IMG/VR virus record: IMGVR_UViG_3300043427_002233
Coordinates: 1 to 64,000 of that record
Source: a virus
Strand: one strand, 5' to 3'
Length of the DNA stretch: 64,000 nucleotides
Shown here: positions 12,001 through 60,063 of the stretch, one piece after another
Layout: every line of letters starts with the position of its first letter
Position numbering within the stretch: the first letter of the stretch is position 1
The notes under the pieces: generated by a model
Databases searched by the model: none
What the model saw: only the letters and a program-made list of their open reading frames with translations
Told to the model about the DNA's origin: nothing
Made by a program: the position numbers and the translations under genes

Positions 12001-14725
12001 TAAATTGTGGCACTTCAACTTCCTTTCCGGAAGCGTCTTTAGTCTTAATGTTTGTAATTTGTAAATGTTCAAGATCAATAAGACCTTTGTCTAAACCACC
12101 AGCTTGACCAAGTTTAATAAAGTTTTCTTTATTCTTGATCAAAGAAGGAACGGTAACTTTCTTTAGAGATTCAAAAGCTCTAGCATTATCAACTAATTTA
12201 AATTTAGCTAAGTTAGCCATTGCTCCTTCAAAGTCATTGACAACTTTTTCAATACTCTTTAGTTTCTTAACATCATAGGTTTTACTAACATGAGAATCTG
12301 GTCCGAAGATATCACCCTTTAAAAGTGCATCTTTTTCGATTGCAAGTTTATTAGCAACGACGGATGTAAAGGTTTCAATAGCAGCTCTAGTACCTAAGAT
12401 GATTTCATTTAAACGGGATTCATTATATTTTCCAATAATTGCATCACGAACAAATGACATATCATTGTCATCTTTAAAAGTATTATGCAAATAATTCATT
12501 GCCTTTTGAATACCCAAGGCAGGATTTTTTTCAGTATCGCGAATGCGGTTAGCTTCTTTAACAGCTAAGCTAATTGTTTCGGCAGCTTTAATATCAGCAT
12601 CATTCTTACTTGCAGCTTTTTGTGTAGAAATTTCTAACATTTTTCCAACAATATCTGAAGAGTAAATGCGGTTTAAGTTACCAACTTGAGCAGCAACACC
12701 AGATGCGCCCATCTGCATATCATTACCACGGAACCCACCCATTAAGTTATTTTTAAATAACCAACCTTGGGTGACAAGGTTTTGTGGATCTAATAAATTA
12801 AGCCATGCTTGTTTGTCGAACATTTTACCAGTAGTAGCCAAAGAACTTTGGGTACCCATCGTTAAAAAGTTTTCCATCATATCCATTGCTGAGTTTGTAA
12901 AGACAAATGATTTACGTTTGCTAGCATCAGCAGCCCAACGTAATAATGAATCTGCGAATGTGTCATCTAAAGCACCAGCAGCTTTAATGTCTGCAGATTT
13001 TTGGAATGTTGATTTCCACCAGTTAGCTAAACGAGTAGTAGCTGGCGTATCACCGACAGATCGTAGCAAGAAGGATAAACCAAAGTTTAAACCAGTCATC
13101 GCTAAAGCACTACCGATAATTTCATTATCATCTAAATCTAAAAATTCTTTAGATGCAGTTAAGGATGCAGTCGTAGTTGTAAAGTCTTTAACGGCTAAAT
13201 AACCAAGACCACGAACAGTGGCTTGAGTTGCAGTTAAGACGGCATTGGATGTACCAGCGCTGTAAACACCTTGTGATAAACCAACGACGCCGTTGATTGC
13301 GTTACCAATGTTTCGTAATCCCCACGTTGTAAATCCTTTAAGTCCACCATACTTAACGACTTCTTTACCTAAAATCTTTTGACCTTCTTTAGAAATACCT
13401 AAAACAACTTCTTTAGTTCCAACGCCAGATAATCCGCCACCAATAGCTGATAGTGCAAACATACCAGCAAGGTAACCGACTGCTCTTGATGTACCACGTC
13501 CAATACCTTCGAAGTCAATCGAACCATCGGCTTTAGTAAATCCAGTTCCAGTAGAATAAACATTATTACCAAACATATATGATCCAGCTTTTGCACCTTC
13601 TACTTCTACGTAGAGATCAGCGAGCTTATCATATTCCCAGTTTCCAGTAAATAAATTTTCAATCGTATCGACAAGACCAACAGTTCCATACATAAATAAA
13701 TCAGCAACGCCAGCGACAGCGCTAAGTGCACCTTGTACAACTTGGTCGCCATAAACGCCAAACATGCCGTCGACTTCAATACGATCTAAAGATCCGTCTT
13801 CGTTGTAATACGAAATAGCTTTTGTGTCTGGAGCATCTGATCCAGCTTCACGAACTTTGTAAAGCATACCATCACGATGTAAGTAGTAATCAATCTTACC
13901 ATCACCGTCTACATCTACAGTAGGATTAAATCCTCTGAGTAAACCAGCTTTATAAAGTTTAATCTTTTCTTCATCCGATTCAACGATAGTATCAAGTTGT
14001 TTAAATTGTTCTTCGAAAAGTTCACGAACTTTTAAAGGGGGTAATTTATTTTTATCACCTAATTGTCCAAGAAAAGAGTTTTGAATATCGAGCGTATTAC
14101 TTTCTGCATACCAAACTTCGTTTTGATAAAGCGTTTGAGCTTGTTGCAAAAGTGATGCGAGATAACTTGGATTATCAATTGGCGAATCATACATCCCTTG
14201 TTTACGCCGATTATACCAATACAAAGAAGAGGTCATATCATGACCATCTGCTTTTAATAAATCTTGTCCATAAGCTTTATACAAAAATGTTTGATAGCCA
14301 AGTTTACCACTTGCAACATCTTGCTCCAGCTTTTTAATTTTTTCTTCGCGTAATAATATTTTTGCGTCGATATCGAATCCGGTTGGAACGAACTTATTCG
14401 TATTATAGTATTCGGTGAATGATTCGTTCGCTTTTAATCCAACAGCCGCACGCAATTCATTGGCTCTAGTTACACCTAACTTTTCGCCATATAATGATTT
14501 GTTTACTTCTGGTAAATTATAAGTTGGCGCGTCACTCACTCGGACTACACCGGATGCGAATTGCACTGCACCATCTTCTCTGGCTCGTTTGATTCCTTCA
14601 TCTTCGAAGCTATTAAGATCGAATTCTACTTTAGGTAGTTCAACTTTAACTTCGGGTGCTGTAACTTTTACAGCGAAGGGATCTTGAGACTTGCCAAATC
14701 GAGGGTCGAAATTCTGACCATCCAT
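1..14725 (-). CDS. Giant two-barrel virion RNA polymerase polyprotein-like protein (3' end beyond window)
   Basis: The frame is open from ATG 14725 (site AGAGGAG) to the left edge, at least 4,908 residues, with the stop outside the window. I checked the frame at the start, at 3310 and at base 2. Residues 3806-3810 read DVDGD. About 40 residues upstream is a segment LNVMRHP...GSIASLKVKIL that matches the beta-prime NRAPTLHRLGIQAFEPVLI region, followed by a spacing like that before NADFDGD. This is the magnesium-binding loop of two-barrel RNA polymerases. I could not place the partner lysine barrel with confidence. The N-terminal part has hydrophobic, glycine-rich stretches near residues 325-350, 413-435 and 533-553, and an EF-hand-like loop at 271-282. 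Single-chain polymerases of crAss-like phages are packaged and injected with the DNA to transcribe early genes; that role is inferred here. Most of the chain has no recognisable family. Candidate promoter -10 TACAAT at 14750-14755. Confidence 0.8.
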   Translation of the reverse strand, partial: MDGQNFDPRFGKSQDPFAVKVTAPEVKVELPKVEFDLNSFEDEGIKRAREDGAVQFASGVVRVSDAPTYNLPEVNKSLYGEKLGVTRANELRAAVGLKANESFTEYYNTNKFVPTGFDIDAKILLREEKIKKLEQDVASGKLGYQTFLYKAYGQDLLKADGHDMTSSLYWYNRRKQGMYDSPIDNPSYLASLLQQAQTLYQNEVWYAESNTLDIQNSFLGQLGDKNKLPPLKVRELFEEQFKQLDTIVESDEEKIKLYKAGLLRGFNPTVDVDGDGKIDYYLHRDGMLYKVREAGSDAPDTKAISYYNEDGSLDRIEVDGMFGVYGDQVVQGALSAVAGVADLFMYGTVGLVDTIENLFTGNWEYDKLADLYVEVEGAKAGSYMFGNNVYSTGTGFTKADGSIDFEGIGRGTSRAVGYLAGMFALSAIGGGLSGVGTKEVVLGISKEGQKILGKEVVKYGGLKGFTTWGLRNIGNAINGVVGLSQGVYSAGTSNAVLTATQATVRGLGYLAVKDFTTTTASLTASKEFLDLDDNEIIGSALAMTGLNFGLSFLLRSVGDTPATTRLANWWKSTFQKSADIKAAGALDDTFADSLLRWAADASKRKSFVFTNSAMDMMENFLTMGTQSSLATTGKMFDKQAWLNLLDPQNLVTQGWLFKNNLMGGFRGNDMQMGASGVAAQVGNLNRIYSSDIVGKMLEISTQKAASKNDADIKAAETISLAVKEANRIRDTEKNPALGIQKAMNYLHNTFKDDNDMSFVRDAIIGKYNESRLNEIILGTRAAIETFTSVVANKLAIEKDALLKGDIFGPDSHVSKTYDVKKLKSIEKVVNDFEGAMANLAKFKLVDNARAFESLKKVTVPSLIKNKENFIKLGQAGGLDKGLIDLEHLQITNIKTKDASGKEVEVPQFKLGGEVLSDDLVKLLMPYVGQIGKGKANNLAKFTLIDLPTDGSSEGQAARLKLVGLLNTLSEIAKVDSKAGMIQPIYQLRDGTYLIPAFHDGLKITTFKKLHEVLVGLYGVKYNTSSKEKSLSFKDLFLGIQGKAYTGSKEDNIVASGFLNKLINNNFISLLDASYILSGTEFAKLNSDPNINLNNLTGIKQAIDLNEGIRLYQDFKTKAGVDPNTRDQGVVDKARKAFEDYYTNLSPELQILIASREGFSAQELGKFIAQNPIEDKSRLLSFFKTLSENLGSKEAISEDKEFYDSVVNTVINLTGAQKVLTESLPEAVLSKLQNFAEIKVSGRNVNTVVAALLGKVKSTQDLRLKALDFTTEDIKLAIQEVRAKLVNADKSEWKDSDTLNLEQQIKTLVFKAKAESITENLFYGNTNSFKNAILEIYNSKPAVSIEEQTKQGPKVGDVLPGGEKVEPIDEGTLDGLNKLEKIFGIDLSSAKLKLTSSFGNSSPLLGKYARTFSDAVSQIIIGLQKIKDENLDLDNLDISNPNVKRLLGFLMYVKNGSKVLLEELNNDVIFTKENIRSLISILDTLNAQASFADTRNELDFGSLLIEFLPSIRSYFNNARFEKSRQVEIAGTKIGGNFVINTKDQPILEKLIFSSLFDQTLLDVLSPGKDAVLSKAQATEETLVPKKLFGETPPNEKTYLNYPGEFKIVSINGKDFFVEGNRAFALVEYKGVKIPFYFSSGEGDKYTASNPIGQRGAVPKRWYFSYGYNPSDRKSFSSWVNKPSTPIIVNFGRSKVVRAMSEFLQDTLKLPALSPNDIADDKDIAFYNEGLKPVDFLGMPLQNTLMSEAKPFYDNAKVVEDRIKLIDPEAANKNEKISNIVTKDSFTQAIAPVFKLKSKPVEVVVNIPEKELNTGFSRNRFDENKNLQKIVLETVLGNPDNIKRLFDLGDEKLHIQKAMDLYEKIFIKDTISQKSSGKIILNINELLGREQARFLQAAQSSNKRDQILSSTDTDSKLTQVFGEKFVSWAKLNLNSEMFTVENLVHLYKDRLVNGTLEFNFQLIDGRIRINSPEERVLLETILRGLNYELYDIGETLENIPGIYFKAQHEDNAVDIEFEKNGKALFLKALSDEGSVKWTDVAEDAYIKTLDLKESIINRTSNLNFIDDNTQFAFGAKDKKLPRFVGSTDFSISNKFLSIFNALDLNLKQGRNGGALFKAYFMARRLNHNASSIDINLKKNNFVMETIDAIDEFVKTSKKKIFEKTLVFSEMILSEDNIKEFKDNGDLYNFVYLKDYDDKSGRNLKIYQVVPKDNFKELAFDYINKNGTVNFRFILPLELSSKISAQEQFNTRELNISQGDNIAVSNTSRLNTLQTTGYDMVNFIQTKIGVFSEEFIRDVYLDTVSFIKRGLGLESKIVDMLKNKTYKEIMTMGDTKVTGEDVLLKDTIYYEMLNRFLLGARQLSDSIMKELGTENAELNKILSDKDVRESLGDQLTILLDDIRKKTVTLDTADHPRINKIVTSVNKILNRKVLNNGFASVNNIQALGYGPESEGKAIVDSYEIASLGVNNKFKAKITNKDVFEIFNTMVYDQNFKILNATTKEGQINPVVSKIQSLVSTADTTGEEKLSIFVDHLYRLDENEFDQIISFMKSKGVKASSLSSLKKKYKTILDNSVYHEAMFKNRTESDFYSEERLITLSNLPSATRRNVLTYFENDSEKSKKQLTDFLNNQMKKPVSSSSAAAKMIKASGVDIQKSNPYISLISNLKNAIEKDVDSPLTASRLVQNLQHSEFLGKYMFNIIELSKNVHKVMNAQNIKIGVEDATKIAFTILNQSTGVTYDKFFANTFFFDTKTNTIKSVTGSGASSDSFGYIAYQYIKDYVSAEPGRIIAFQVDKDALLSSSRSAVGSVRFMILDENNQRQMRTLVNQFVNNERNQKRLAELPPLKSNQEKFATVLSRYTTQSDRYDMITTALTKLKIPHQYARSIARQIFFNGQNVQVGSPKDSFNYAKTMNTINLNNPNYRTSNIKENNVQKSLNDSVYFINVNELPSDYLRTLRVAADEFEKSLPKANGYRDDVLKVVDLIIEKGTKHIDVVNLMEAFKNKTLGRKSQAGEAIDLLSQSIFGNEFTLQKFTQDVMALYILKKNDGATHNFLLLDNNINDIMTRATQQNRLEFTTDNGKKYTSEELLRNDWFASDVESAFYIDKKGNEVPLVLEVSVGKYKGLPDIRKTSDNDEQLEGTIKRIVVPAYYEGKVINRASLALLTKLTDLDKQIEFLFPEYYAKVYKRFGDSARNVWNNYLDNVDSIVLNKTNGISKSPLTSGSYLVREFRKLGYDGTQVLISFNGKNFDFGSKEKDGVLIASGILPANDTFFKNSQVDIFSDIYVNQRFDVGSYSDQQGYALIDLARKLNINYENAHVSDSDVDVTAKAAVKLLAVTSNANRITTNILNVMDDLLSNLNVTRKDIPLETLVKNVPLLNKTFLSDDTNEFIKNYKEVFNPKNLTDFNKAVNTIISQLKDYLDTVEKEVKRKQIKELVREELGNRYNFFEKIQKNSNEIATVFEYFIERSEKFISSNKYDDNTLLDKTEDDYKNRPALLRIFDLLKEVFGDEIQGKVNPNEESNIDENGVVTQKPGKTLSAYGYERLLSLNPDQLFDLMAKQIPIKSFGFATGRTISKADFEDFKKTNNGSKLQNYIDQLRERDDNLLGKINDEEKRYSLLTKFTYNYDSLFGSVISGFDKSIQDIILNEAATPFLRNLGLSDSQYRNRINDKGLKLDDSNFIRTLKGLVNNSSFGSTFHYTAFYSQVNQADYNMKYEMANGNTESIGANEIGMTAKQYEDSTGISVENAKALFNVSQGGDIYLNVMRHPVDKIGSIASLKVKILADTPENRRTSFLMNTDTLFAVLAGDVDGDNISILSPTKGSAEFNSRLFKYLRKGNDLISRSILKLNNPKSIENDVVLKLTLKYGNQIFTSWINNKSKKDSDRFVLSKGKKTFDVLRSERKQELINWLSNDKADMKLIGEKDIDKIADDILKYAWLQEYDLNVFLVGAGKFYYTSNTQDNSEENLRAFKALSFAKTRNFGAQAIADTSTGYYANLKNRIAENFKGKDVKFLLNYSVAGLTEESQEYILANLSQFKQNLVSEITESFNRKELFINENDFKILLKGISDEKATVVDILSYLTKLDALIMESKEFGDEYVKSYQAFTELDKDILQEKENFNVGLLQNYAKTLGIEGVENIFDLSLLQNNVFEKLANYSKGNFWASSGSSAGRKEDLLRGLQKLEDLANKNLGEDVDSNIRYHESVAGITDEEGFRADIHSNIMVVFDKEMFQDSLPIKAQDVYLYNEDSLESLKSVKAFMYSVNSVDKKLVKILLDNKDDVLKNSITLSNGEVIPAGYKFINYEQLKNGSSKLLFVKTTDFEPGTKFIVPGTKNFKSTLGGAVKSETALGKVIKSFDKAVDFVYSSDGIDYKNFTPLVGKFFNKDNVTYYDRSNQETKDPSQAAYAIFKEVPMQLTQVGFETRRKTNNVDDIILSTSKRNIFGNVLFGNSLIKVDSNDPTKITFSSELISKGSKALDVLNQPTLIGNNAAYLHGSLINFIALKYSGLSQNEITLKFASYAKEFDLGSIDSIKNFWYIIDTYYNGSIQNLYPKLNDMEQIILSDNLYSTFFDSENGRIIKSIDEIKGLSKNEGFQRQVGGYNSVDGQFRPAGKNERLIARRLENTIFNNKYKGSLVFDNTFGYMSNLEYLNYIINAHNMSNKDKAGFKPISFIKSNDAVDASLLKILNVGMGVGSSLYDGFEAVNLRDALIETVPQNYGSSFIDQKTGDIIEGIIQQVKTKNFAPSEFSEKRKPNDFQNTLSNYTNLIGSTNMQFDSDAKRYTNTQLKRLSSINTNKNSSTGTTLRQSEVRALKYILNSAAKAKNINERVALFGYNPKVYAPLSVTGVAVNENDNRLSLGYDTEFVETSFGSFENDIKQKLNSRRFMDLFDFKSDSLEESLNKASQFDEITA

Positions 14726-14785: not shown

Positions 14786-15394
14786 TTAAATATATTTAAA
14801 TTTTAATTCGGACAACAAACGTTTCTTCGTACCTTTATTCTTATCATTGACATGGCGCCTAAAAGATGATAAGGAAACATCCAGCTCTTCGGCAGCATCT
14901 TTCAAAGATTCATAAACAACCCAGTGTTTATTAAGTAAAACCGCAATTTTCTTACCTCGGTGGCTATGATCGAAAGCTTCACCCGGTGGAACGATCAATA
15001 GATTCTTAAAGCTACAGTTCGTCATCTTCCGGTTACGATGATAGATTTTGGAGTTCGGAACCCACAATCTAGAGAACGTCATCGCCACTAACTTTTTTAA
15101 AGGATATCGACGGTGATCGATAACAACCGCAAGGTATTCTTCACGTTTACTTTGCTTATTACGTTTATACAACTTCGTTGGTAATCTTTTAAAAAGGCTA
15201 GCGACCGGACCATTTTCCTGAAGATCACGTTTCATATACTTCTCCACATAACCTCTGGAGTTAACATAATATAAACAGTGAGCCGTCTCTTTAAAGAGGC
15301 GACGGTAATGTTCCCAATTCAAACGACGATGTTCCTCAAGATCCTTGATGGTATCAATCGTCATGCTGGCAATAAATTCTAATTGTTCTTTCAT
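14786..15394 (-). CDS. HNH-like endonuclease or DNA-binding protein with C-terminal helix-turn-helix
   Basis: 202 residues. The middle of the protein resembles the H-N-N part of HNH homing-type nucleases: YPLKKLVAMTF near 97-107, then H119, N126 and N131 in the context YHRNRKMTNCSFKNL. The usual second histidine next to H119 is not seen, so activity is doubtful. The C-terminus (about 155-190) looks like a NUMOD1-type helix-turn-helix (LKDAAEELDVSLSSFRRHV). Proteins like this are free-standing nucleases or their decayed relatives in phages; DNA binding is the safer guess. It has its own strong promoter and the ATG sits 7 bases after the -10 box with no ribosome site, so the message should be leaderless. 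It lies just upstream of the giant polymerase gene. Confidence 0.6.
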   Translation of the reverse strand: MKEQLEFIASMTIDTIKDLEEHRRLNWEHYRRLFKETAHCLYYVNSRGYVEKYMKRDLQENGPVASLFKRLPTKLYKRNKQSKREEYLAVVIDHRRYPLKKLVAMTFSRLWVPNSKIYHRNRKMTNCSFKNLLIVPPGEAFDHSHRGKKIAVLLNKHWVVYESLKDAAEELDVSLSSFRRHVNDKNKGTKKRLLSELKFKYI

Positions 15395-16272: not shown

Positions 16273-16722
16273 TTAGTCCTCCTTATTTTCTTTATAATAC
16301 TCTTCTATCGCAACGAAGTCAACCATTAAATCTTTATCTAGTTTTTGATTAAGTTCAAGAGCACATTGATCACAGTATGGCGAGATCCAACCCATGGATA
16401 TTTTAGTAGCAGGTTTGCCACAATGAATACAGATATAATAACTCATACGTTCGTATTTTGAGATGACATCATAAACTTCCCTTGATGCACCATGACAATA
16501 GAATCTTAACCCGCCAAACTTTTCTTTGACTTGAGTGATCAGCAACTCTTCACCCTTAAGTGCTGTGGCAATCTCTTCCATCATCTGTTCGCCGAAGGCA
16601 ATCCTCCAGCCACCCGGCATTCCATCTAACCAGGTTACTTTAGTCGATCGGTCATACTTACCGGTCATAAGATTCCTCAAACGAAGGAACGGATATTTTT
16701 TAAGAAGTTCTTTATTATTCAT
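16273..16722 (-). CDS. Zinc-ribbon protein with QVKEKFGGLRFY motif
   Basis: 149 residues. It has two CxxC pairs (C98/C101 and C117/C120), which should bind zinc. Upstream of them is the stretch ITQVKEKFGGLRFYC (about 62-76), which I recognise as a hallmark of a family of short hypothetical proteins found in phages and bacteria; its function is unknown. It is the first gene of a four-gene minus-strand operon. The start codon lies 6 bases after a TATAAT box and has no ribosome site, which predicts a leaderless message. Confidence 0.65.
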   Translation of the reverse strand: MNNKELLKKYPFLRLRNLMTGKYDRSTKVTWLDGMPGGWRIAFGEQMMEEIATALKGEELLITQVKEKFGGLRFYCHGASREVYDVISKYERMSYYICIHCGKPATKISMGWISPYCDQCALELNQKLDKDLMVDFVAIEEYYKENKED

Positions 16723-19897: not shown

Positions 19898-20039
19898 ATC
19901 CCGTGGCAACTTAGTCTCATTGTTATCTGACGACAACGAATACGAATACTATGACTCTATCCGAATCAACAAGGTATCTTTGAAAGGAGACCGCCATGAG
20001 AAACTTGCTCGACAAGAACTACGTAATACCGCCAAATAA
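19887..20039 (+). CDS. Tiny charged protein overlapping two neighbours
   Basis: 50 residues (MKIKSRGNLVSLLSDDNEYEYY...), not recognised. AGGAGG sits 8 bases before the ATG. It overlaps the end of the membrane-protein gene by 11 bases and the start of the HELGH gene by 44 bases. Confidence 0.5.
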   Translation: MKIKSRGNLVSLLSDDNEYEYYDSIRINKVSLKGDRHEKLARQELRNTAK

Positions 20040-20751
20040 GTGGACTAAAGAAATGTTTGACTCTATTGTTTCATTTCTTTATACACGAGATGAAAACATT
20101 TTTCACTTGGATCCTAATGGTAAACTTATCATTACTAATCCTGAAGCTGTCTTTGACAAAATGAGATCTCTATTACCACATCCTCGTATTGTTGAGATTT
20201 ATCTTGACCTAGCTACATTACGTAATCTTTTTTCTACTAAGTTTAAGATTAATCTTTCTGTTCTTGTTGATACGATTAGTGATAGATACTCCTCTTTCTT
20301 TAAGTCTGAAATGAAAGCACCTGCTTCCATTGACATGACTACCTCAACTATTATCTTCCGACAAGACAGTATTTTTAAAGCTATCCAAGAAAGATTTTTA
20401 GCTTTTATTGCTGTCAATTTTTCCGACCACTACATTTACCGAAGCGATGTTAGAGATGAATTAATTAACGTTATGTTATGTTTACATCTTTACCTTCTTG
20501 ATCATGAGTTAGGACATTTCTTTTTTAGTCCTAACCACGAACAAAAAGAAAAGATTAAAAGACAATTTATCACAAACAATCCAAAATATGCCGGTCTTGA
20601 TGATGGTACTATCCATCGTATGCTTAACTTTCTTGAAGACATGTATATTGAAGACCGTTTCAAATCTATTATTTATCCAAACGATCCAAAGATTCACCAA
20701 GTTTATGATCTTGGACGATTTTTATTAGGAAGGACAGGATATGCCAAATAA
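19996..20751 (+). CDS. CobT-like metallopeptidase-type protein (HELGH)
   Basis: 251 residues. H170-E-L-G-H174 is the zinc-binding HExxH signature, and NFLEDMYIEDRF (about 211-222) gives the acidic third-ligand motif seen as N-x-LED-x-R-x-E in CobT-like proteins. In that family the HExxH part usually sits at the N-terminus of the same chain as a VWA domain. Here the VWA domain is a separate gene, which overlaps this one by 11 bases. The partner AAA+ ATPase lies two genes further on. The set probably forms a MoxR/CobS-VWA machine that remodels or cleaves a target protein; the target is unknown. Start ATG 19996 follows AAAGGAG. Confidence 0.65.
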   Translation: MRNLLDKNYVIPPNKWTKEMFDSIVSFLYTRDENIFHLDPNGKLIITNPEAVFDKMRSLLPHPRIVEIYLDLATLRNLFSTKFKINLSVLVDTISDRYSSFFKSEMKAPASIDMTTSTIIFRQDSIFKAIQERFLAFIAVNFSDHYIYRSDVRDELINVMLCLHLYLLDHELGHFFFSPNHEQKEKIKRQFITNNPKYAGLDDGTIHRMLNFLEDMYIEDRFKSIIYPNDPKIHQVYDLGRFLLGRTGYAK

Positions 20752-21976
20752 AACTACTGACTTTGGCGATGTTGAATCCGTATTGTATAAATTATTAAAC
20801 ACACGATATGTTTCTTATTCACCTGACTTAACATCATTGTTTTCCAATGTTCTTAATGAACACGACCCTGTTGCTCGTGGTGTGAAATTTCTTGAAGACA
20901 TTGCTACACGCATTGACTTTTCTGAAATTGAAAATCCACCTCAACCTGATGAACCAAATAAACAAACAGTTGATGGTACTGATGGTGAAGGTGATGAAGA
21001 TGGTGCCAACATGTTATCTTCTGCTCTTGAAGACTTAGCTCGTGGTAGAAATGCCGCGCCTAACTTTGGAACCATTAATGAAGAACATTCTCTACACTCA
21101 TTTCAAACACTTAGTGTCTCTCCAAAACATCTTGAGTTTTATCACTCTATCACAGGATCGTTTACCGATTCCTGGCAACAATATTTACGGAGAGATGATG
21201 GAAGAATGCTTTCATTACGCAGTGGTAAGTTTTATAATCGACATGCTTATAAAACTGAACTAACTCCTGCTGTGTTTTACAAAGATGTTAATGTTATTCG
21301 TGAATCTGATCTGAAAGTATTTCTTTTTATTGACACCAGTGGTAGTACTTATACTGACATGGGTGGTAGAAAGAAAGACCTTGATCTTTCCTATTATGAC
21401 ACTGCTGACATTGGCATGGTCTTGAAAGACAAGGACGAACGAAGTGAGGAATCTATATATTCTCTACATAAAACACAGAACATTTCCTCAAGTTATTATA
21501 TGACTACACTTGCACTTGCAATGGGTCATGTACTTAAACTTGGTAATTGTTCTCTCGACTTTTCTTATTTTGATAATCATAATAAGAACATAAAAGACAT
21601 TTCCTATGTCGAAAAAGACTTAGAGAAATTATTTTATGCTAATAAACTTTTAGGCGGTGGTGGTACAGACCTTACCGAAAGTTTTAAGTATCTTGATTTT
21701 TGTATTCCTAATAGCAACAATCGTGACAAGTTGATACTTGTTCTAACTGATGGTGCTATTTCCAGTGAAAAACTTTTACAACAAAAGTTAACAAGCTTTG
21801 CAACGGACTACAATGTTCGTGCTTTGTTTGTTGGTATTGGCGCTCGAATGCCTCAGAGTTTTGCATCAATTCCAAAATATGATGCACTATGTTATGTAGA
21901 TGCGAACGACTTAGTCGCTCGTTTTGCTGGTGATTTTAGCCAGTTTTTACTACACAAATTCTTCTTGGAAGAATAG
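20741..21976 (+). CDS. VWA-domain protein (CobT-like C-terminal half)
   Basis: 411 residues. An acidic linker (about 61-90, with DGTDGEGDEDG) separates an N-terminal helical part from a VWA domain beginning near 190. The MIDAS metal site is visible: D198-T-S-G-S202, then GGGTDL and LVLTDGA further on. This matches the CobT/VWA partner of MoxR/CobS AAA+ ATPases, in which the VWA protein bridges ATPase and substrate. The ATG is inside the end of the HELGH gene, so the two chains are probably made together and act as one protein in two parts. Confidence 0.75.
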   Translation: MPNKTTDFGDVESVLYKLLNTRYVSYSPDLTSLFSNVLNEHDPVARGVKFLEDIATRIDFSEIENPPQPDEPNKQTVDGTDGEGDEDGANMLSSALEDLARGRNAAPNFGTINEEHSLHSFQTLSVSPKHLEFYHSITGSFTDSWQQYLRRDDGRMLSLRSGKFYNRHAYKTELTPAVFYKDVNVIRESDLKVFLFIDTSGSTYTDMGGRKKDLDLSYYDTADIGMVLKDKDERSEESIYSLHKTQNISSSYYMTTLALAMGHVLKLGNCSLDFSYFDNHNKNIKDISYVEKDLEKLFYANKLLGGGGTDLTESFKYLDFCIPNSNNRDKLILVLTDGAISSEKLLQQKLTSFATDYNVRALFVGIGARMPQSFASIPKYDALCYVDANDLVARFAGDFSQFLLHKFFLEE

Positions 21977-21995
21977 AATGAAAGGAGGAAAAACC

Positions 21996-22223
21996 ATGAC
22001 AATTATTAAAGCAGTTAAAGTCGTGTTAACTGATGCTCAAAAATCATTGATTAATGAACGCTATGGCCGTATGGCCTGGCCTATTATTAAAACAATTGAA
22101 AGAGTTGTTGATGCTGAACCATCACGTTCTCTTTCTGAGCTCGTAGAACATGCCATGATATATTTGGATGACCATTTTGGCGGACCAAATCTAGATGGCG
22201 ATGCTGTAAACAACATAGAATAA
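21996..22223 (+). CDS. Small helical hypothetical protein
   Basis: 75 residues from ATG 21996, behind AAAGGAGG; a longer frame overlaps the VWA gene and is less likely. MTIIKAVKVVLTDAQKSLINERYG... reads as three helices. It lies between the VWA and AAA+ genes, so it may be part of that system, but no family is recognised. Confidence 0.55.
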   Translation: MTIIKAVKVVLTDAQKSLINERYGRMAWPIIKTIERVVDAEPSRSLSELVEHAMIYLDDHFGGPNLDGDAVNNIE

Positions 22224-26659: not shown

Positions 26660-26679
26660 TATCGCCTCTAATCTTTTTT
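26649..26679 (+). terminator. Probable terminator of plus operon
   Basis: GAGGC (26649-26653) pairs with GCCTC (26664-26668) across a 10-base AT-rich loop, with TTTTTT a few bases later. It spans the meeting point of the plus operon and the chaperonin gene. The stem is short, so it may be leaky. Confidence 0.45.
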
Positions 26680-28170
26680 AATCAGTATGTAGGCACGTAG
26701 GTAGTTTGCTGCGATTGAACTTGCGTTCGTTAAGGATGTTTCGATTGATGCATAGCTATCTACGATGCCTGCTTTAGTTAAGTTTACTTCTTTCTTACTA
26801 ACTACATCTATCGCTATACTATTTTGTAACCCAGCTTCCTTAGTAATCTTTAACCCAGCATTGGATAAAATGGTTAACAACGGTTTACGTAAAACATTAC
26901 TGAGCTCAGGTACCTCGAACGATACGTTCCATAATGCCTTACCCGCTCCGATTGTAATGCCTTTTTTAGTAGCCGTTTTTACCGCTCCGATTGCGTCGTC
27001 TAGCTTCAACTTAATCGTCATGTATTCTGTGACGGTTGGGGCATATATCTTAATCTTTGTTACGCCCGACTCTAGATTGGCTAGCCTACGTGTGATCATG
27101 TTGGCACGGTTCATTCCAGTGGTGTAAGCTTGTTCTTCAAGTTCTTTCTTGTAACTCTTGATACGTTGTAACAAAGCTTTAGCATTGGGTGCTTCTGCCG
27201 TAATCGTCGTTTTCATTTGTTCAATGATAATAGACTTAGCCTTGCCTAACGAATCAAATACAAAGTCAGCTCCACTAACTGCATCCTGTGCTGTTCCGCC
27301 AGTATACGCAGCTACGTCTAAGAAGATCTCTTCTTGGGATACGTCGTTGATGAAGATGATTTGGAATTTGAATTTGTTTTCTGTCAAGGTATCTAATAAT
27401 AACTTTAAAGACTCCGGATTAAATTTGTTTGATACGATGAAGACGAACGGGTGATCGATCTGGTCTTGAGGGATAGAAGCGAAAAACTTCTGGGTATCCA
27501 GCTGTGTGAAGATGCCTTCCTTTAGGACGGCGATGAATGGGTTTTGGTATACGGTCTTCTCACCTTCGTTGCATAACGCTCTGAGTGACTCTGACATGTA
27601 ACCAGCATCTAACGTCATGCCAGATGTGAACTCCACATAAGATTCTTCTTTGATCCGCTCGTGCTCCGTGACTACGTTCATTGTCCCGCCAGACTTGCGA
27701 TATGCTTCAGCTACTAATGCGCCGATGGCCGGGATCTTTGTAACGATCGTTGATAGATTAGCTACCTGATCAATCGTAAGTTTGATGCGATACTTCTTGA
27801 GTTCGTCTTTTGCTTTCGCAACTAGCTCAAGTAGTTTGTCTGCAGCAACCTGCGGGTGTAACCCACGTTTGATCCAAGCTAAGCCTTGCTTGTATAACTC
27901 ATTCGTTAGTAAGACTGTTAAGGTCGTACCATCAAATGCTGTCTTCTCTGTATTGTTGGCAGCTTCAATCATGGAGATGGCTACCATCTTTTCAAATCCC
28001 TCGAAGTCGAATGCTTGCTTGGCCACGGTAACACCGTCGTCAGTTAAGATGGGCCGGCTGAATTCATCTTGAATGACAGCCATCCGACCCTTTGCTCCCA
28101 TCGTTGGGACTACCATGTCTGCGATCTTCTGGAAAGTATCCTTGATGATCTTGATATCTGATGTCTTCAT
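26668..28170 (-). CDS. groEL-like: Phage GroEL-like chaperonin
   Basis: 500 residues, against about 548 for bacterial GroEL. The group I chaperonin ATP-site landmarks are present: TMGAKGR (23-29, for TLGPKGR), TDDGVTVAK (43-51, with D45 at the GroEL D52 place), FDGTT (79-83, with D80 at the D87 place, although the G before it is F), LDDAIGAV for the D398 region, then GAGKAL for GGGVAL. The GGM tail of GroEL is absent. It should form ring-shaped folding chambers in the cytoplasm for phage proteins. Phage chaperonins are known from a few large phages such as EL and AR9. Its ATG overlaps the stop of the 283-residue gene as ATGA, behind GGAGG. A GroES-like gene lies 2.7 kb upstream in the same direction. 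Confidence 0.9.
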   Translation of the reverse strand: MKTSDIKIIKDTFQKIADMVVPTMGAKGRMAVIQDEFSRPILTDDGVTVAKQAFDFEGFEKMVAISMIEAANNTEKTAFDGTTLTVLLTNELYKQGLAWIKRGLHPQVAADKLLELVAKAKDELKKYRIKLTIDQVANLSTIVTKIPAIGALVAEAYRKSGGTMNVVTEHERIKEESYVEFTSGMTLDAGYMSESLRALCNEGEKTVYQNPFIAVLKEGIFTQLDTQKFFASIPQDQIDHPFVFIVSNKFNPESLKLLLDTLTENKFKFQIIFINDVSQEEIFLDVAAYTGGTAQDAVSGADFVFDSLGKAKSIIIEQMKTTITAEAPNAKALLQRIKSYKKELEEQAYTTGMNRANMITRRLANLESGVTKIKIYAPTVTEYMTIKLKLDDAIGAVKTATKKGITIGAGKALWNVSFEVPELSNVLRKPLLTILSNAGLKITKEAGLQNSIAIDVVSKKEVNLTKAGIVDSYASIETSLTNASSIAANYLRAYILIKKD

Positions 28171-29018
28171 TTAGCTGGGCCTCCATATAAATAGGTCGTT
28201 TTCTTTTTAGCACCTTTCTTTGGCATTGGCGCAGCTAACTTACGTCTTGGTTGTTTTTTCATAGGCTTTTTAGCCTCCTTTGTTTTTGGATTATAATCGT
28301 CGTATATAAACCTGTCGTAGGCATCACCATACTCTTTTATGATTTCTTCTGATAACTTCTCTACCTTCTTGGTATTGTATAAGAAGTTGTCTGAGTCTTC
28401 GGTCATCCACTTGTCGTACTGTTCACAACTGTACTCTTGTGTGTTGATTTTCCATGGCTTGCCTTTGTACTCTGATGTAACAAAGCTGGGCTCGTACCAT
28501 TTGATGATCCGATTGTTAGGCTGGAGTGCAAACAGTCCATTGTCTAACATGATCAGGTGGTGAGACTTGTGCTCTTGGAAATCCTCGGCTAATGTTAGAT
28601 CGATACCGGTGTTCTCATTGCTACCCCATTGAAGGGTTAACATGTAAGTACCACCTAGTGTATCGCCGTTCTTCATTAACACATCTACATTTGCATTATA
28701 GACGTAGTTTAACCCAACCAGGGTAAATACCTTAGAGAAGCAATCCCATAGCTGTAATGAGTGGAAAGGATATGTTTTCCATACTTCCTCTGTATCAGGT
28801 AGTTTCCAGCAGATAGCGGAGATGGGAAGCTTGTCTCTCATCATGCCATGTTCTGTAAGAACTTGGAATAGTGCAGCCGATCCTTCGTTGCAGCGGATAG
28901 AAATTAGAATCGCCTTTGTATATTTGCCTACGTATTCTTGGTTATCGGGATCATCAAAGAAGAATCCATCTCTAACCCAGACTTTAATAGGCGGTAAGCT
29001 GGCTTCAATAAACGCCAT
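28167..29018 (-). CDS. Conserved phage protein of unknown function, coupled to GroEL
   Basis: 283 residues. The body (IEASLPPIKVWVRDGFF..., KLPISAICWK, LQLWDCFS) resembles a conserved uncharacterised protein of environmental phages that I recall only by pattern. The C-terminal 40 residues are strongly basic (KKQPRRKLAAPMPKKGAKKK), suggesting nucleic acid or capsid contact. It begins behind AGGAGG and ends by ATGA overlap with the chaperonin gene, so the two are co-translated. It may be a chaperonin client or helper; that is inference from position. Confidence 0.55.
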   Translation of the reverse strand: MAFIEASLPPIKVWVRDGFFFDDPDNQEYVGKYTKAILISIRCNEGSAALFQVLTEHGMMRDKLPISAICWKLPDTEEVWKTYPFHSLQLWDCFSKVFTLVGLNYVYNANVDVLMKNGDTLGGTYMLTLQWGSNENTGIDLTLAEDFQEHKSHHLIMLDNGLFALQPNNRIIKWYEPSFVTSEYKGKPWKINTQEYSCEQYDKWMTEDSDNFLYNTKKVEKLSEEIIKEYGDAYDRFIYDDYNPKTKEAKKPMKKQPRRKLAAPMPKKGAKKKTTYLYGGPAK

Positions 29019-33781: not shown

Positions 33782-34015
33782 CTAGATCTCCTTTAATATT
33801 GTTAGATCTTTACGATTGATAAACCCATGTCTATTAGCTAACACCATGAGTATACGATGTGATCTTTTGTTCTCATTGTATTCTCCAGTCTTAACTAAAC
33901 GGATAGCCTGTCTTATGTTGGATTGGAAGATTTCTTCTTTGCTTCTTAAACGTTTACGTTTTTTTCGCAAGGTAATTCTACTAATCTTACTATCTAAGAG
34001 GGCGTTTAAATCCAT
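33782..34015 (-). CDS. Small basic protein, first gene of chaperonin operon
   Basis: 77 residues, very basic (KKRKRLRSKEE), not recognised. The ATG lies six bases after TATAAT with no ribosome site, so the message should be leaderless. It heads the operon that carries the GroES-like and tiny-protein genes. Confidence 0.55.
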   Translation of the reverse strand: MDLNALLDSKISRITLRKKRKRLRSKEEIFQSNIRQAIRLVKTGEYNENKRSHRILMVLANRHGFINRKDLTILKEI

Positions 34016-34021
34016 AAATCA

Positions 34022-34054
34022 ATTATAACACAATCAATTGCAATATGTTATAAT
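34022..34054. promoter_or_regulatory. Divergent pair of extended -10 promoters in an inverted repeat
   Basis: ATTATAACA (34022-34030) and TGTTATAAT (34046-34054) form a perfect 9-bp inverted repeat with a 15-base spacer. Each arm is an extended -10 box (TGnTATAAT). The minus arm lies six bases before ATG 34015, the plus arm seven bases before ATG 34062, so both messages should be leaderless. Confidence 0.7.
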
Positions 34055-34061
34055 GTTTTAT

Positions 34062-34802
34062 ATGTCCAAAACCGAAAGAATATTTCAACCTTTAGTCATA
34101 CAGGATAAGCAAGAGTTTCTATCCTTGCTTAAATCCGGTAAACTTAAGTACTCTAAATATAATATCTTAAACGAACAACAAAAGCTATTCGTTGAGTTAG
34201 TTGTGTTTGGTGGTTACTCCGGTGAGCAGGCTATGAAAGCTATAGATCCTGAGATCCGTAACCCTAAACTCTTAGCTAACCGAATGGCATCTGATCCGGA
34301 TGTGGCCACAACACTTGAAGAGTTGTCTGCTCAGAAGGATAAGAAGTTTATGACTGAGCTATCAGAGGCTCGTGAACTCGCGCTCTCTAAGCTTATGTTC
34401 ATTATGTCTACTACTAAAGACGAAGCATTAGCTGCGGCTGCTGCTAAGACAATCATTGATGCATCTGGCAAAGCTGTTGCTGCTAACGCTAAGAAAGATG
34501 AAGGTGCTGTTGGCCAAGTTAAATTCTCTATTCAAGTTGAGAATGCCTATATGGGTACACAGCCACCGCTAAAAGCTAAAGAAGATCCAGTTATCATAAC
34601 GATTGATGATCAGGAAGCTTCTCGTGTTAAACAAGAAACTCAAGCCGAACTTCAAGAAGTTAAGGCTAAGGTTCGTGAACAAGAAGAGTTACTTAATACT
34701 ACCAAGCAAGCTAACTCTAACCTTCCTGTGAACCCAGATACTGGTTTACCATACACGATCTCTTACGAAGGCGTTAACTCCTATGAAAAAGATGATAACT
34801 AA
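34062..34802 (+). CDS. Possible small terminase subunit
   Basis: 246 residues from ATG 34062 (MSKTERIFQPL). The segment LNEQQKLFVELVVFGGYSGEQAMKAI (about 37-62), then NRMASDPDVATTLEEL, fits the N-terminal helix-turn-helix of small terminase subunits (l..kq..Fv..y...gn...A...aG). A long charged helical stretch follows and could drive ring assembly. It is a plus-strand island in a minus-strand region. The large terminase subunit is not in the window, so pairing is untested. Probably leaderless. Confidence 0.5.
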   Translation: MSKTERIFQPLVIQDKQEFLSLLKSGKLKYSKYNILNEQQKLFVELVVFGGYSGEQAMKAIDPEIRNPKLLANRMASDPDVATTLEELSAQKDKKFMTELSEARELALSKLMFIMSTTKDEALAAAAAKTIIDASGKAVAANAKKDEGAVGQVKFSIQVENAYMGTQPPLKAKEDPVIITIDDQEASRVKQETQAELQEVKAKVREQEELLNTTKQANSNLPVNPDTGLPYTISYEGVNSYEKDDN

Positions 34803-35058
34803 AGCCAAGCTGCTTCTTAAGAATCTATTCTTAACGAAAGAAGGCTGGCTATCATGGATCATAGCTAATGTTATTACGTCACTTCCGTGGGCACTACCTT
34901 TAATCTATGGATTTATTTTTAAAGATGCTAATGCATATGTAATCGCTGCATCTATTTGGACTTTTGTGATGCTACCCATTACACCCTTCTGGGTCTTTAA
35001 CGTTTTGATTGCAACATTCTTTGTACAAAAAGTATTTAAAATAAAAAACCCACAGTGA
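34783..35058 (+). CDS. Small two-to-three-span membrane protein
   Basis: 91 residues. Hydrophobic stretches near 20-42 (WLSWIIANVITSLPWALPLIYGF) and 48-82 suggest two or three membrane spans with a basic N-terminus. It overlaps the upstream gene by 20 bases. A holin is possible from size and build, but holins cannot be called from hydrophobicity alone. Its stop lies inside the bidirectional terminator stem. Confidence 0.5.
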   Translation: MKKMITKAKLLLKNLFLTKEGWLSWIIANVITSLPWALPLIYGFIFKDANAYVIAASIWTFVMLPITPFWVFNVLIATFFVQKVFKIKNPQ

Positions 35059-35163
35059 AGGGGGAGACACTGTGGATCTTTTGAAAGGAGGGGCCATGGA
35101 AATGAATTAACCATGGCTCCCTAGAAAGGAGGTATAGGGGAGAGGTCGCGTCTCTAACCCTAC
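35043..35163 (-). ncRNA. Candidate small RNA with two 16S rRNA anti-Shine-Dalgarno copies
   Basis: About 121 bases on the minus strand between a good promoter (TTGACT, 16 bases, TGTTATAAT; 35197-35170) and an intrinsic terminator (CCACAGTG/CACTGTGG, then TTTTTT; 35075-35043). Two more hairpins lie between. The first, UGUAGGG/CCCUAUA (about 35164-35134), has a G-U pair that works only on this strand. Between the hairpins, predicted single-stranded, are CCUCCUUUC at 35132-35124 and at 35091-35083. The first reads ACCUCCUUUCUAGGG, like the 3' end of Bacillota 16S rRNA and its precursor. It should pair with ribosome sites of mRNAs. On the plus strand the same bases read as ribosome sites, one before a four-codon frame, an alternative reading. 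Confidence 0.55.
35050..35075. terminator. Bidirectional terminator
   Basis: Perfect 8-bp stem CCACAGTG/CACTGTGG with a 10-base loop. On the minus strand it is followed by G and six T; on the plus strand by ATCTTTT, weaker. It would end the candidate small RNA on one side and the plus-strand pair of genes on the other. Confidence 0.75.
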
Positions 35164-35169
35164 ACCATT

Positions 35170-35197
35170 ATTATAACATGTCTTTATTTTAAGTCAA
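35170..35197 (-). promoter_or_regulatory. Promoter of candidate small RNA
   Basis: TTGACT (35197-35192), 16 bases, TATAAT (35175-35170) with TG extension. It overlaps the last codons of the primase-helicase gene and has no protein gene downstream, only the 121-base structured stretch. Confidence 0.65.
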
Positions 35198-37085
35198 TAC
35201 CTAATTCGTTCTTAACATTCGTAACAAAGTTTGTTTGATTTAATGCGTGTCTAAGTGAGTCTGCGCACCATTTTTTATAACTTGAGTACGCAACGTCTTC
35301 AGACATAATTTTAATATCAGTTGGATCTGCTTTCCATTTTTCGTGGAACCAAGACAATACAGATGAGTTATCAATCTTATATTGTTCCATCATATCAACA
35401 ACTTCTTTAGGTGTCGTAAACTCTTTTGTAGTTTTTAATAGACGATGAATTGCGACTACTGCTTTATAGGCTGTATAATCTAATGCTTCTTGTTCCATAA
35501 GCTTTCTTTTAAAGTTCATACCTTCTACTCTACTAACGGCTGTTAAGTCTGCAGTAAATGGTATGATAGTTAACCTTCTATAGAACCCGTATGATTGATC
35601 TGGAGTTCTTGGAAGTTTGTTAGCTGCAAAGAACATCGTGGCAAATAATGATTTAGAATAAGCATCTTTATATTTTTGCTCAACCATAATTTCTTCACCA
35701 GATATAATTGACTTTACGATATCGCTATCATTTAAAGGTGCGCTACTTATATCACCTGCTAATGATGCAAGTTTATTGTTCATAGCTGATGCTCTAAAGT
35801 TATTTGCAAGATCTTTAAATGCTATGGCTGTAGTATTTTCTCTACCTAATACTTCTTTAATAAGATCTAAGAATGTTGATTTACCATTACGTCCTGAACC
35901 CACTAACAAGAATGCTTTTTGTAGTTCGTTTGTTTTTAACATTGAATATCCAATGGCTTCATATAATAACTGTTCGATACTTTGATTACCCTTAGTGGCT
36001 GTATGAAAGAATTCATCGACAGTTTGAGATTTAGCATTTGGATTATAGTTAGCATTGATTTGTATTGATTCTAAACATTCTGGATTCATCGGTTTGAACT
36101 CTAGTGTATTAACATCTAGGATTCCGTTTTTAAATACAACTGTGTATGGGTTCTCATTGAACTTAACAGACTCATCGAATAAATATTGTTCAACGTATTT
36201 TAATGTTTCATCTTTTTGATAGTTTTTTAAACTGGGTATTAATTTAGTCATGTAACCCAACAAATAATCTCTGTCTGTAGAATAAACTTTTTTTCGTTCG
36301 TTATAAAAGTAAAGGTCTTTTGTCGTGCTATCTCTTTTAACATAGCAATTCTTAATAACATAATTGCCTAACCGATCATGGAAGAATTTGTCTTTGTCGA
36401 CAAACTGTTTTACTAATTGTTCTTCACTTATTCTTAATACGTTTTCTAATTCAATATCTGCTAACGGGACTTGACAAAACTCCTGATTAACCATCTGCAC
36501 CACTTCATTCTGCATGATGGTACTAATACCTAATGCTTTTAGCTTACTTAATATGTCTATTAATACTACGTTTACATTGCTTTGTATTGGAAGTTTAATA
36601 CCATCTACAATATTGTTTGAGATCTTTCTTGTTGGTAATAACCATACAGGAAGTGAACTTATGAATTCACCATACTCAATCTTATATTGTGATAGTAAAC
36701 TTGATACGCTATTCGGAACTCTGAATGGTAGTGTGATAACTCTTCCCGCTCCATATGTATTTGCATTGATACCGCAAGCTAATCGGTTAACAGTTGTTGT
36801 TCTATTGAAGTCTGACTTACAGACAATGTATAGTATCTTATCGTTTTTAGTGAAGACAAAGACCGGTTCGTTTTTAGAAATAATTACTGGCAGTATGTTT
36901 ACTTCTTCTGTTTCTATTACCAAGTAACCATGAGGAATAACCCATGACACTTCAAGTGTCGGATCTGAACCAAGATTCTTAACCAATGCACCGTTTGCTT
37001 TGAGTGGCGGTTGGCCAACTCTAGAAACTACGTACATAGATTCTTCTTGACTGTTTACGATGTTGTTGAAATCTCTAAAGTTCAT
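35184..37085 (-). CDS. D5/P4-type SF3 primase-helicase
   Basis: 633 residues from ATG 37085, preceded by AGGAGG at a short distance; a GTG four codons earlier overlaps that site. The C-terminal half holds an SF3 helicase: Walker A GSGRNGKST (396-404), Walker B-type LASLAGDIS (about 439-447) and motif C FFAANKLPRTPD (about 485-496). The preceding 150 residues fit the D5 N-terminal domain. The first 200 residues do not show a clear primase motif, so a primase activity is likely by family but not seen. It should unwind DNA at the replication origin. It heads toward the candidate small RNA and follows the regulator and SSB-like genes. Confidence 0.85.
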   Translation of the reverse strand: MNFRDFNNIVNSQEESMYVVSRVGQPPLKANGALVKNLGSDPTLEVSWVIPHGYLVIETEEVNILPVIISKNEPVFVFTKNDKILYIVCKSDFNRTTTVNRLACGINANTYGAGRVITLPFRVPNSVSSLLSQYKIEYGEFISSLPVWLLPTRKISNNIVDGIKLPIQSNVNVVLIDILSKLKALGISTIMQNEVVQMVNQEFCQVPLADIELENVLRISEEQLVKQFVDKDKFFHDRLGNYVIKNCYVKRDSTTKDLYFYNERKKVYSTDRDYLLGYMTKLIPSLKNYQKDETLKYVEQYLFDESVKFNENPYTVVFKNGILDVNTLEFKPMNPECLESIQINANYNPNAKSQTVDEFFHTATKGNQSIEQLLYEAIGYSMLKTNELQKAFLLVGSGRNGKSTFLDLIKEVLGRENTTAIAFKDLANNFRASAMNNKLASLAGDISSAPLNDSDIVKSIISGEEIMVEQKYKDAYSKSLFATMFFAANKLPRTPDQSYGFYRRLTIIPFTADLTAVSRVEGMNFKRKLMEQEALDYTAYKAVVAIHRLLKTTKEFTTPKEVVDMMEQYKIDNSSVLSWFHEKWKADPTDIKIMSEDVAYSSYKKWCADSLRHALNQTNFVTNVKNELGIDLK

Positions 37086-37118
37086 TTTCCTCCTCACTTT
37101 CCTTAACGACGATTACGC

Positions 37119-49332: not shown

Positions 49333-49341
49333 ATTATAACA
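49333..49341 (-). promoter_or_regulatory. Extended -10 promoter inside the virion operon
   Basis: TGTTATAAT on the minus strand (49341-49333) within AATATGTTATAATG, identical over 14 bases to the plus arm at 34042-34055. No good -35. The leader to ATG 49309 contains AAGGAG. Confidence 0.5.
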
Positions 49342-49343
49342 TA

Positions 49344-50279
49344 TTAGTTAGATACAAAAACACTGTTTTGATTTCCAAATATTGAGTCATCAGACCAAGC
49401 TTTATCTTCTGTAAAGTTACTATAAATATAAGTAACCTCTTTGACCACCCCATTAAATTTCACATAAACCTTATTCTTGGGTTTGATGGGTGTGTATAAT
49501 TTAATATAATTCGCTAAATGGTTACCTTGTTTATCTGTGACAATAACGTTAACAAGAACTGGCGTTCTAGTCTTTAAACCTGTAAAGGTATATTTAATAA
49601 CACCAAGCTTGGAAGATTGATCAAGCGTACCATTCTCACTAAGTACCCTTTGATCAAATGGTTTAAGGTTGCGATAGTTAAGTAACTGAAACTTATATTC
49701 AATATTCTTATTAATATAGTTAAAGTCACTTTCAATACCATAGTCATAATAGATAGAAACTGCTATCTCTTCTAGGCTACGATCGGTATCGTCAGTATCA
49801 AAGCATCTTATATCAAGATGTTTAATTTGTGGAATAGGAACTAAACTACTAATTAACTTTACATTCTCAGACCTTAATAAAATCTCACCTGTTGTAAACA
49901 ACAATGCGTTTGTAACACTATCAGATTTAATAAGGAACCTAAAGTCTCTTATCCAACGTAAATTGTTAAAGGTACTACGGTTTTGATTAGTAATATCAAT
50001 CTTAAAAACAATCTCTTTAAATAGATTAACGTCCTCATTACCGGTCCAAACATTCTCTTCGTTTAAGTTAATCGTATAACGATCAACCCAATAAAAGGTT
50101 GGAGATAATAAATCAACAGCCTTTGTCTTTTCATCTTCTAGATAAAACCTAAGTCCAACATTACTGTTTTGTGGACTATTAGAATACAAAAGGATTGTAA
50201 TAATGGCTTCTTCTTTTTTGATAGAAATATTCTTTACTTCAAAAAAAGTATTAAGTTTATTAATCTTCTGAGCTGCCAT
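49344..50279 (-). CDS. Hypothetical beta-rich virion protein
   Basis: 311 residues from ATG 50279 (MAAQKINKLN), behind AAAGG; earlier starts overlap the site. Long series of beta strands with little helix, as in baseplate or fibre-connector proteins. Not recognised. Confidence 0.55.
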   Translation of the reverse strand: MAAQKINKLNTFFEVKNISIKKEEAIITILLYSNSPQNSNVGLRFYLEDEKTKAVDLLSPTFYWVDRYTINLNEENVWTGNEDVNLFKEIVFKIDITNQNRSTFNNLRWIRDFRFLIKSDSVTNALLFTTGEILLRSENVKLISSLVPIPQIKHLDIRCFDTDDTDRSLEEIAVSIYYDYGIESDFNYINKNIEYKFQLLNYRNLKPFDQRVLSENGTLDQSSKLGVIKYTFTGLKTRTPVLVNVIVTDKQGNHLANYIKLYTPIKPKNKVYVKFNGVVKEVTYIYSNFTEDKAWSDDSIFGNQNSVFVSN

Positions 50280-50922
50280 ACTCATCAACCTTTACATAAA
50301 GTGTATCAGCAGAGGCTCCAGATAATGCGCTTTCAGGTGCAATAGTATTTACAATAATCTTGTTTTCTAACGCCGTGACCCTAGCAGCTAAGGTAAGAAG
50401 GTCAGCTTCTTTAACTAATGAATATAAAGTACCGTTAATATTTACCTTAGGCATTGTCATAAACTCAGCATCTGTAGCAATTAAATAATTAGTATTAAGT
50501 TGTTCATCAACATTATAATTAATTATAATAAGTTCATCAGATGAAATAGCTCTTAACATATATAACTTATTAGCTTTAAGTTCTTTAGCTTTTGCTTGAG
50601 TAACAACGACAGTATTATTAACTAAGCTTTTTTCTATCATAACTTTATATAATTTATTATTAACCGATGTACTGTCAAACCCTTCTGATGGTTGTAATAA
50701 ACTAACAAACTGAAGGTTATCAAAGTTATTTCTTGAATCTGTACCAGTTGGGATAAAGTAAAACACAGTATGTTGATCAATTAGACCAACCTTATGCTTG
50801 ACGAAATGAACGCTAGGATTCGTATTAGCAGCTAAAACAATTTCCCTATAGATATAAGGAGCATACTTAAGAGCATCCGCAGCTTTAGTTAATAAAGTAA
50901 GTTCTTGTGTAGTAAATGGCAT
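50260..50922 (-). CDS. Hypothetical virion protein, 220 residues
   Basis: Helical N-terminus (TTQELTLLTKAADALKYAPYIYR), then a beta-rich body and a heptad stretch near 180-200 (LTLAARVTALENKI), which may form a trimer. It lies among fibre genes and is probably part of the fibre or baseplate. Not recognised. Confidence 0.55.
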   Translation of the reverse strand: MPFTTQELTLLTKAADALKYAPYIYREIVLAANTNPSVHFVKHKVGLIDQHTVFYFIPTGTDSRNNFDNLQFVSLLQPSEGFDSTSVNNKLYKVMIEKSLVNNTVVVTQAKAKELKANKLYMLRAISSDELIIINYNVDEQLNTNYLIATDAEFMTMPKVNINGTLYSLVKEADLLTLAARVTALENKIIVNTIAPESALSGASADTLYVKVDEYGSSED

Positions 50923-60057: not shown

Positions 60058-60063
60058 ATACAT

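Follow-up and report, generated by a model that had tools for sequence, protein, structure and literature searches.

Directly downstream of the primase/helicase gene (35184..37097, minus), which served as the synteny anchor in this analysis, the window, that is, the whole stretch of 64,000 nucleotides analyzed here from the 70.2 kb virus record IMGVR_UViG_3300043427_002233, contains a putative small-RNA gene on the same strand. Its promoter (TTGACT-16-TATAAT with an extended TG, 35197-35170 minus) scores 11 of 12 and is thus near-consensus for sigma-70. The -35 element, TTGACT (35192..35197), overlaps the 3' end of the primase gene, with the promoter running across the primase stop codon, and the -10 element, TATAAT, lies at 35170..35175, one base downstream of the TG. 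Only seven promoter sites with a TTG-anchored -35 and a score of at least 11/12 occur in the entire 70-kb genome, this promoter among them. The predicted RNA, which probably starts near 35162-35164, spans about 121 nt, from ~35164 to ~35043, and is predicted to fold into the 5' hairpin 1 (35133..35164), a first linker, ACCUCCUUUCUA (35122..35133), hairpin 2 (GGGAGCCAUGG...CCAUGGCCCC, 35089..35122), a second linker, CCUCCUUUC (35083..35091), preceded by CAUGG, and an intrinsic terminator hairpin with a U tract (35043..35082). A convergent gene for a probable membrane protein of 91 aa (34783..35058, plus), conserved in the related phage G001, ends inside the terminator.

Linker 1 is identical to 12 nt of the 3' tail of Bacillota 16S rRNA, which we take to be GGAUCACCUCCUUUCUAAGGA. 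This linker is predicted to be fully open (probability of being unpaired 1.0 for CCUCCUUU) and linker 2 to be partly buried in stem 2 (0.64), so that an open ACCUCCUUUCU separates the two hairpins and a half-open CCUCCUUUC separates hairpin 2 from the strong terminator. There are three copies of CCTCCTTTC in the window, two of them inside the RNA, compared to 0.40 expected by chance, and none of 100 shuffles reaches three. The three hairpins of the minus-strand RNA have a predicted energy of -48.5 kcal/mol (z = -6.14), against -46.5 kcal/mol (z = -4.78) for the plus strand, on which a weaker hairpin forms after the convergent gene. The first-pass annotation had favored the minus strand on account of a G-U pair, and this argument holds because 15 pairs form in the terminator stem of the minus strand, against 8 in that of the plus strand. 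The discrete minus-strand small-RNA gene proposed there is likewise borne out as a prediction by the promoter, the three hairpins and strong terminator within ~121 nt, and the fold z-score of -6.1. As a sequence unit, the element is confirmed to be real.

A peptide-coding role was considered and rejected: the open reading frame 34905-35114, which starts in hairpin 2, has no counterpart at the G001 RNA, where, as read by eye, the short frame that begins at the AUG of hairpin 2 is unrelated. A tRNA/tmRNA search of the window gave none, and Rfam 15 at the gathering threshold yielded no family at these RNAs, the only matches being tRNAs in the relatives. Beside terS in G001, the segment L002:9080-9200 combines a T-arm with an ACCA-like stretch (GGACAGGGGTTCGACTCCCCTCTTCTCCACCA) and draws no tRNA/tmRNA call; it is possibly a degenerate or permuted tRNA-like RNA, and a similar T-arm is found behind the primase gene of G008.

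The primase-end locus in related phages

Searches with the primase and the terminase identified a set of related phages, with terminase identities to the window phage of 99% (G002, 20 kb), 87% (G001, IMGVR 3300035670_000211), 72% (G003 and G005), 68% (G008, a contig from a Bacilli metagenome-assembled genome, MAG), 64% (G009, an Acholeplasmatales rumen MAG contig, and G006, 50 kb), 63% (G007) and 60% (G004); no match to the primase was found in G002 and G006. Going by the two MAG contigs, the host may be one of the Bacilli or an Acholeplasma-like bacterium, although the binning of phage contigs is unreliable, and a search of the putative host MAG assemblies did not find the 16S tail. Other features of these genomes include a single gene of more than 18 kb that wraps round the record (66558-70202 and 2-14725, minus), its parts measuring 1214 and 4908 aa (the G001 homologue has 5604 aa, and G007 an ORF of 5251 aa), and a GroEL-like chaperonin gene (26668-28170, minus; PHROG 5725), 75% identical to that of G001 and adjoining a ferredoxin-annotated PHROG gene (28167-29018).

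A small-RNA unit lies directly behind the primase gene in seven of the eight related phages that have this gene. G001, G003, G004, G005, G007 and G009 all show a sigma-70-like promoter at or near the primase end, a short structured RNA and a terminator (promoters at stop codons, and the weak G004 RNAs, were identified by eye), and no unit in the equivalent arrangement was found behind the primase of G008. The G001 unit consists of a hairpin, UCACCUCCUUUCU, a second hairpin and the terminator, and the G005 unit of a hairpin, a long linker with CACCUCCUUU, and the terminator; the predicted probability that the 16S-like motif is unpaired is 1.0 in the window phage and G001, and 0.99 in G005. The sequence around the motif is almost entirely different: the 5' hairpins of the G001, G005, G004, G007 and G009 RNAs are of unrelated sequence, the flanking hairpins of the window, G001 and G005 RNAs have almost nothing in common, and the only 8-mers common to the window and G001 RNAs come from the -10 box, the motif and the terminator base, with the motif being the longest common stretch once the -10 box and terminator base are set aside. 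Stems that are rebuilt while the motif stays are what would be expected from selection on an open anti-Shine-Dalgarno (anti-SD) stretch.

The mimicry of the 16S tail posited in the first-pass annotation thus stands, 10-13 nt being kept in G001 and G005 at the same locus and in G007 at another, amid differing stems, loops and flanks. Its duplication is a different matter: the window RNA does contain two copies, but the doubled motif is not conserved, the relatives with the motif having one copy. Nor are the CCUCC linkers themselves kept across relatives, as had been anticipated. The G003 RNA reads UUUACUCUCC, with CCUCC lost, and at the primase locus G004, G007 and G009 have another, conserved structured RNA on the minus strand (L126:3919-4027, L147:14901-15018 and L143:3354-3459, respectively), with the linkers CUCUUGGUU...GUCUUGUU...AUCUUCAA; this comes close to what that annotation had itself named as counting against it, namely, relatives that retain the hairpins and lose the linkers. 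A covariance model of the latter RNA recovered no clear further member, the best additional hit being L118:10272-10362 (minus; 29.1 bits, E 0.0018). The family of small RNAs as a whole has too few members for covariation statistics. Given the loss of CCUCC in G003 and the different linker kept in G004, G007 and G009, the locus is steadier than the linker. Judging from these sequences, the primase end is a small-RNA locus with an evolving pairing region, of which the anti-SD version is one state.

Copies of the 16S rRNA tail at other loci and in other phages

The exact match to the 16S tail extends over 12 nt in the window RNA, 13 in G001, 10 in G005 and 11 in G007, and in each case none of 300 dinucleotide shuffles equals it; all these RNAs were picked partly by motif or position, except for the G007 unit, which lies at a second locus and came from a motif-blind scan of non-coding DNA for promoters followed by terminators. 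This G007 RNA is ~68 nt long, its promoter scores 12/12 and sits where the gene 49336-50712 ends, and it is made up of a hairpin, CCUCCUUUCUAUAA and the terminator, with CCUCCUUUCUA as its 16S-like stretch. The weaker, 6-nt versions in G004 are not significant (88/300 and 102/300 shuffles). In G004 (~23750), G007 (~54785) and G009 (~43265), a second small-RNA unit, on the plus strand and convergent with the first, is found at the 3' end of terS, with the promoter TTGATA-17/18-TATAAT and pyrimidine linkers. The G009 unit behind terS carries CUCCUUUCU, a 9-nt match to the tail (6/300 shuffles).

Beyond these relatives, a scan of IMG/VR for TTGACA-N16-18-TATAAT-N18-48-CCTCCTTTC gave 65 stretches, among which the second-locus unit of G007 was recovered (L207). 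Three others, L170, L173 and L208, pass the filter and consist of a hairpin, an open CCUCCUUUC and a terminator, and L194, L164 and L172 are alike in anatomy by eye. Among perfect promoters on phage contigs, a terminator follows in 13 of 40 cases with CCTCCTTTC compared to 3 of 52 other promoters (p 0.0015), whereas a terminator together with a 5' hairpin is not significantly more frequent (4/40 vs 2/52, p 0.40); the case for spread to unrelated phages is built on this terminator count and our reading of the loci. Rfam, applied at 15 of the IMG/VR loci, has no family that covers the units. Apart from its hairpin-CUCCUUUC-terminator unit, the L170 contig encodes two type II hammerhead ribozymes (9559-9623 and 8907-8972).

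Another pattern, TATAAT with ACCTCCTTTCT and a T-run, matched 78 IMG/VR loci, and only L023, on the G001 contig, has the anatomy seen in the window; most of these loci were rejected, as they look like opposite-strand SDs or coding sequence. In two groups of related contigs, the L154-like (L154, L155, L157, L159, L175, L182) and the L152-like (L152, L165, L167, L168), a perfect promoter precedes an SD-led gene, and a long hairpin immediately before the SD and start codon holds CCUCCUUUC in its loop (L154, L159, L152 and L168 were read, the other members being grouped by equal scores). This placement suggests cis control, which makes these hairpins candidate cis-acting anti-SD leaders.

Candidate targets and modes of action

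We consider it likely that the RNA is a phage-encoded, trans-acting anti-SD sRNA that blocks translation initiation. We infer that the host sigma-70 polymerase would use the dedicated promoter at the primase end to make the ~121-nt RNA and would stop at the intrinsic terminator. The stable hairpins are predicted to hold the 16S-tail copy ACCUCCUUUCU single-stranded; the open stretch would then pair with purine-rich SDs of mRNAs, above all long ones of the AGAAAGGAGGU type, and such pairing, by analogy with characterised sRNAs, may block 30S binding and/or trigger decay. Anti-SD sRNAs are independent genes with their own promoter and intrinsic terminator and have a single-stranded SD-complementary stretch between hairpins, and both features are predicted here. 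The targets probably differ between the relatives, because the linkers differ enough.

A narrower function, in which linker 2 together with CAUGG would repress a single operon by pairing with the stretch from SD to start codon in the gene 19996-20751 and, less strongly, in 21924-22223, appears unlikely. The phage's own gene 19996-20751 does provide the best match among ~640 start regions from eight phages (-26.2 kcal/mol, the next being -23.0), and 21924-22223, in the same operon, ranks fourth (-21.5), but the start codons in this ranking are machine-assigned, the relatives lack linker 2, and the pairing region lies partly within stem 2 and the terminator stem. Moreover, the ranks of orthologous start regions across the relatives reveal no consistent target group, with no orthologue consistently on top. 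Ahead of the Sak4-like gene, the segment 39374-39300 (minus) combines an 11/12 promoter, a strong SD, a three-codon ORF (AUG UAU CGA UAA), a small hairpin and eight T; it is possibly a short leader or SD-bearing RNA and could pair with linker 1.

Somewhat more doubtful is a global effect, whereby broad masking of SDs would shut down translation of the host and of SD-led genes while leaderless phage mRNAs continue. Such a role fits a match with the 16S tail proper that reaches approximately to the mature end, as well as changes in translation signals. Five genes of the window phage are leaderless candidates, with starts 6-7 nt after the -10 box: 14786-15394, 16273-16722, 33782-34015, 34038-34802, which, from its sequence and position, we take to be terS-like, and 59683-60063. 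Two of these, the terS-like gene and 59683-60063, are apparently leaderless in G001 as well as in the window phage, whereas in other relatives terS has SDs of -7.9 to -14.9 and the homologues of 59683-60063 have SDs of -9.4 to -12.4, except for a weak one (-5.8) in G008. Across 19 shared genes, the SDs of the window phage are weaker by 2.8 kcal/mol than those of the G003, G004, G005, G007 and G009 orthologues (p 0.005). The escape of leaderless genes that was originally envisaged extends, however, to only about five genes, because an SD precedes the majority of phage genes: the anti-SD energy reaches -6 or better at 65% of first starts, compared to 6% in the background, and major structural genes are among those with strong SDs. 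Furthermore, the SD difference is not significant in G001 (1.6 kcal/mol, p 0.23), which belongs to one lineage with the window phage; G005, G007 and G009 combine such RNAs with strong SDs; SDs are weaker by 1.3 kcal/mol (p 0.08) in G008, where no such RNA was seen; and a very high copy number would be needed. That the window/G001 lineage turned two or more SD-led genes leaderless, with weaker SDs in the window phage, is suggestive only, because this is one lineage with machine-assigned starts. We are equally skeptical of the broadest version, a general SD-masking decoy that biases translation, to which the window/G001 lineage would have adapted by way of leaderless genes and weaker SDs, and which would have arisen in many unrelated phages. 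Leaderless mRNAs are also favored by the stress ribosomes that result when the nuclease MazF cuts rRNA and removes the anti-SD, a nuclease-based system without a mimic RNA.

It is highly improbable that the RNA titrates a 16S 3'-end-binding protein, such as Era or a 16S-maturation enzyme, and so impairs 30S assembly: its open stretch does reproduce the binding site, but Era needs GAUCA just before CCUCC, where the RNAs have UAUACCUCC, CUCACCUCC and AACACCUCC. Just as remote is a mere bidirectional terminator with a chance promoter and pyrimidine runs: the hairpin does have convergent genes on either side and a weaker plus-strand form, but the promoter recurs at the primase end in seven phages, the motif is open in three phages here and present at another locus in a fourth, and the fold z-score is -6.1.

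Relation to known small RNAs

The trans-acting anti-SD sRNA that we favor has close counterparts in bacteria. The streptococcal csRNAs are short and terminator-ended, with an anti-SD unpaired between stem-loops, and have been proposed to block translation initiation (PMC3091779). The phage RNA is predicted to have the same open anti-SD between stem-loops and the same terminator end, but it belongs to a phage and contains a 10-13-nt copy of the 16S tail, whereas csRNAs are chromosomal, with one on a plasmid. Their promoters are CiaR-controlled; a plain sigma-70 promoter fits the phage RNA. Furthermore, the open region of csRNAs includes, besides the anti-SD, a CAU (or anti-GUG/UUG) directed at the start codon (PMC3091779); CAU is absent beside linker 1 and from the G001 RNA, G005 has CAUUAACACCUCC, and the CAUGG at linker 2 lies in a stem. 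Open C-rich regions also characterize RoxS/RsaE, FsrA and CsfG of Bacillota, and those of RoxS and FsrA have been shown to pair with ribosome-binding sites (PMC8216469, PMC9266662), but these are chromosomal regulators with a C-rich motif rather than a copy of the 16S tail. The best sub-threshold Rfam matches are anti-SD-type sRNAs as well, ar14, with CCUCCUCCC loops (RF02344, 23.6 bits vs a gathering threshold of 58.8), and anti-hemB (RF02837, 21.0 vs 49.5 bits). These alphaproteobacterial and Burkholderia RNAs resemble the phage RNA in their hairpins, open CCUCC-type motif and terminator, but are unrelated to it in sequence and hosts. The phage RNA has the anatomy of csRNAs and C-rich sRNAs and, by the tests made, is a member of none of these families.

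Among phages, the consulted part of a phage sRNA review describes DicF, sar, c4, STnc6030, AgvB and PAK_P4as15 as encoded RNAs that act on mRNAs or sRNAs; they act on particular targets, and no copy of the 16S tail is described for them there (PMC12197685). No phage RNA with such a copy appears in that part of the review or in our full-text literature searches, in which coverage of subscription journals is thin, so that this absence is weak evidence. The first-pass annotation had considered the design to be undescribed; given that anti-SD linkers are already known in bacterial csRNAs, RoxS/FsrA and ar14, the novelty is confined to their occurrence in a phage. As far as the literature found goes, this RNA, if confirmed, would be the first from a phage to be organized around a copy of the ribosomal anti-Shine-Dalgarno tail, and would represent a simple, RNA-only route for a virus to retune host translation. 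The appearance of this design at several loci, in unrelated phages too, suggests that a class of such RNAs has been overlooked.
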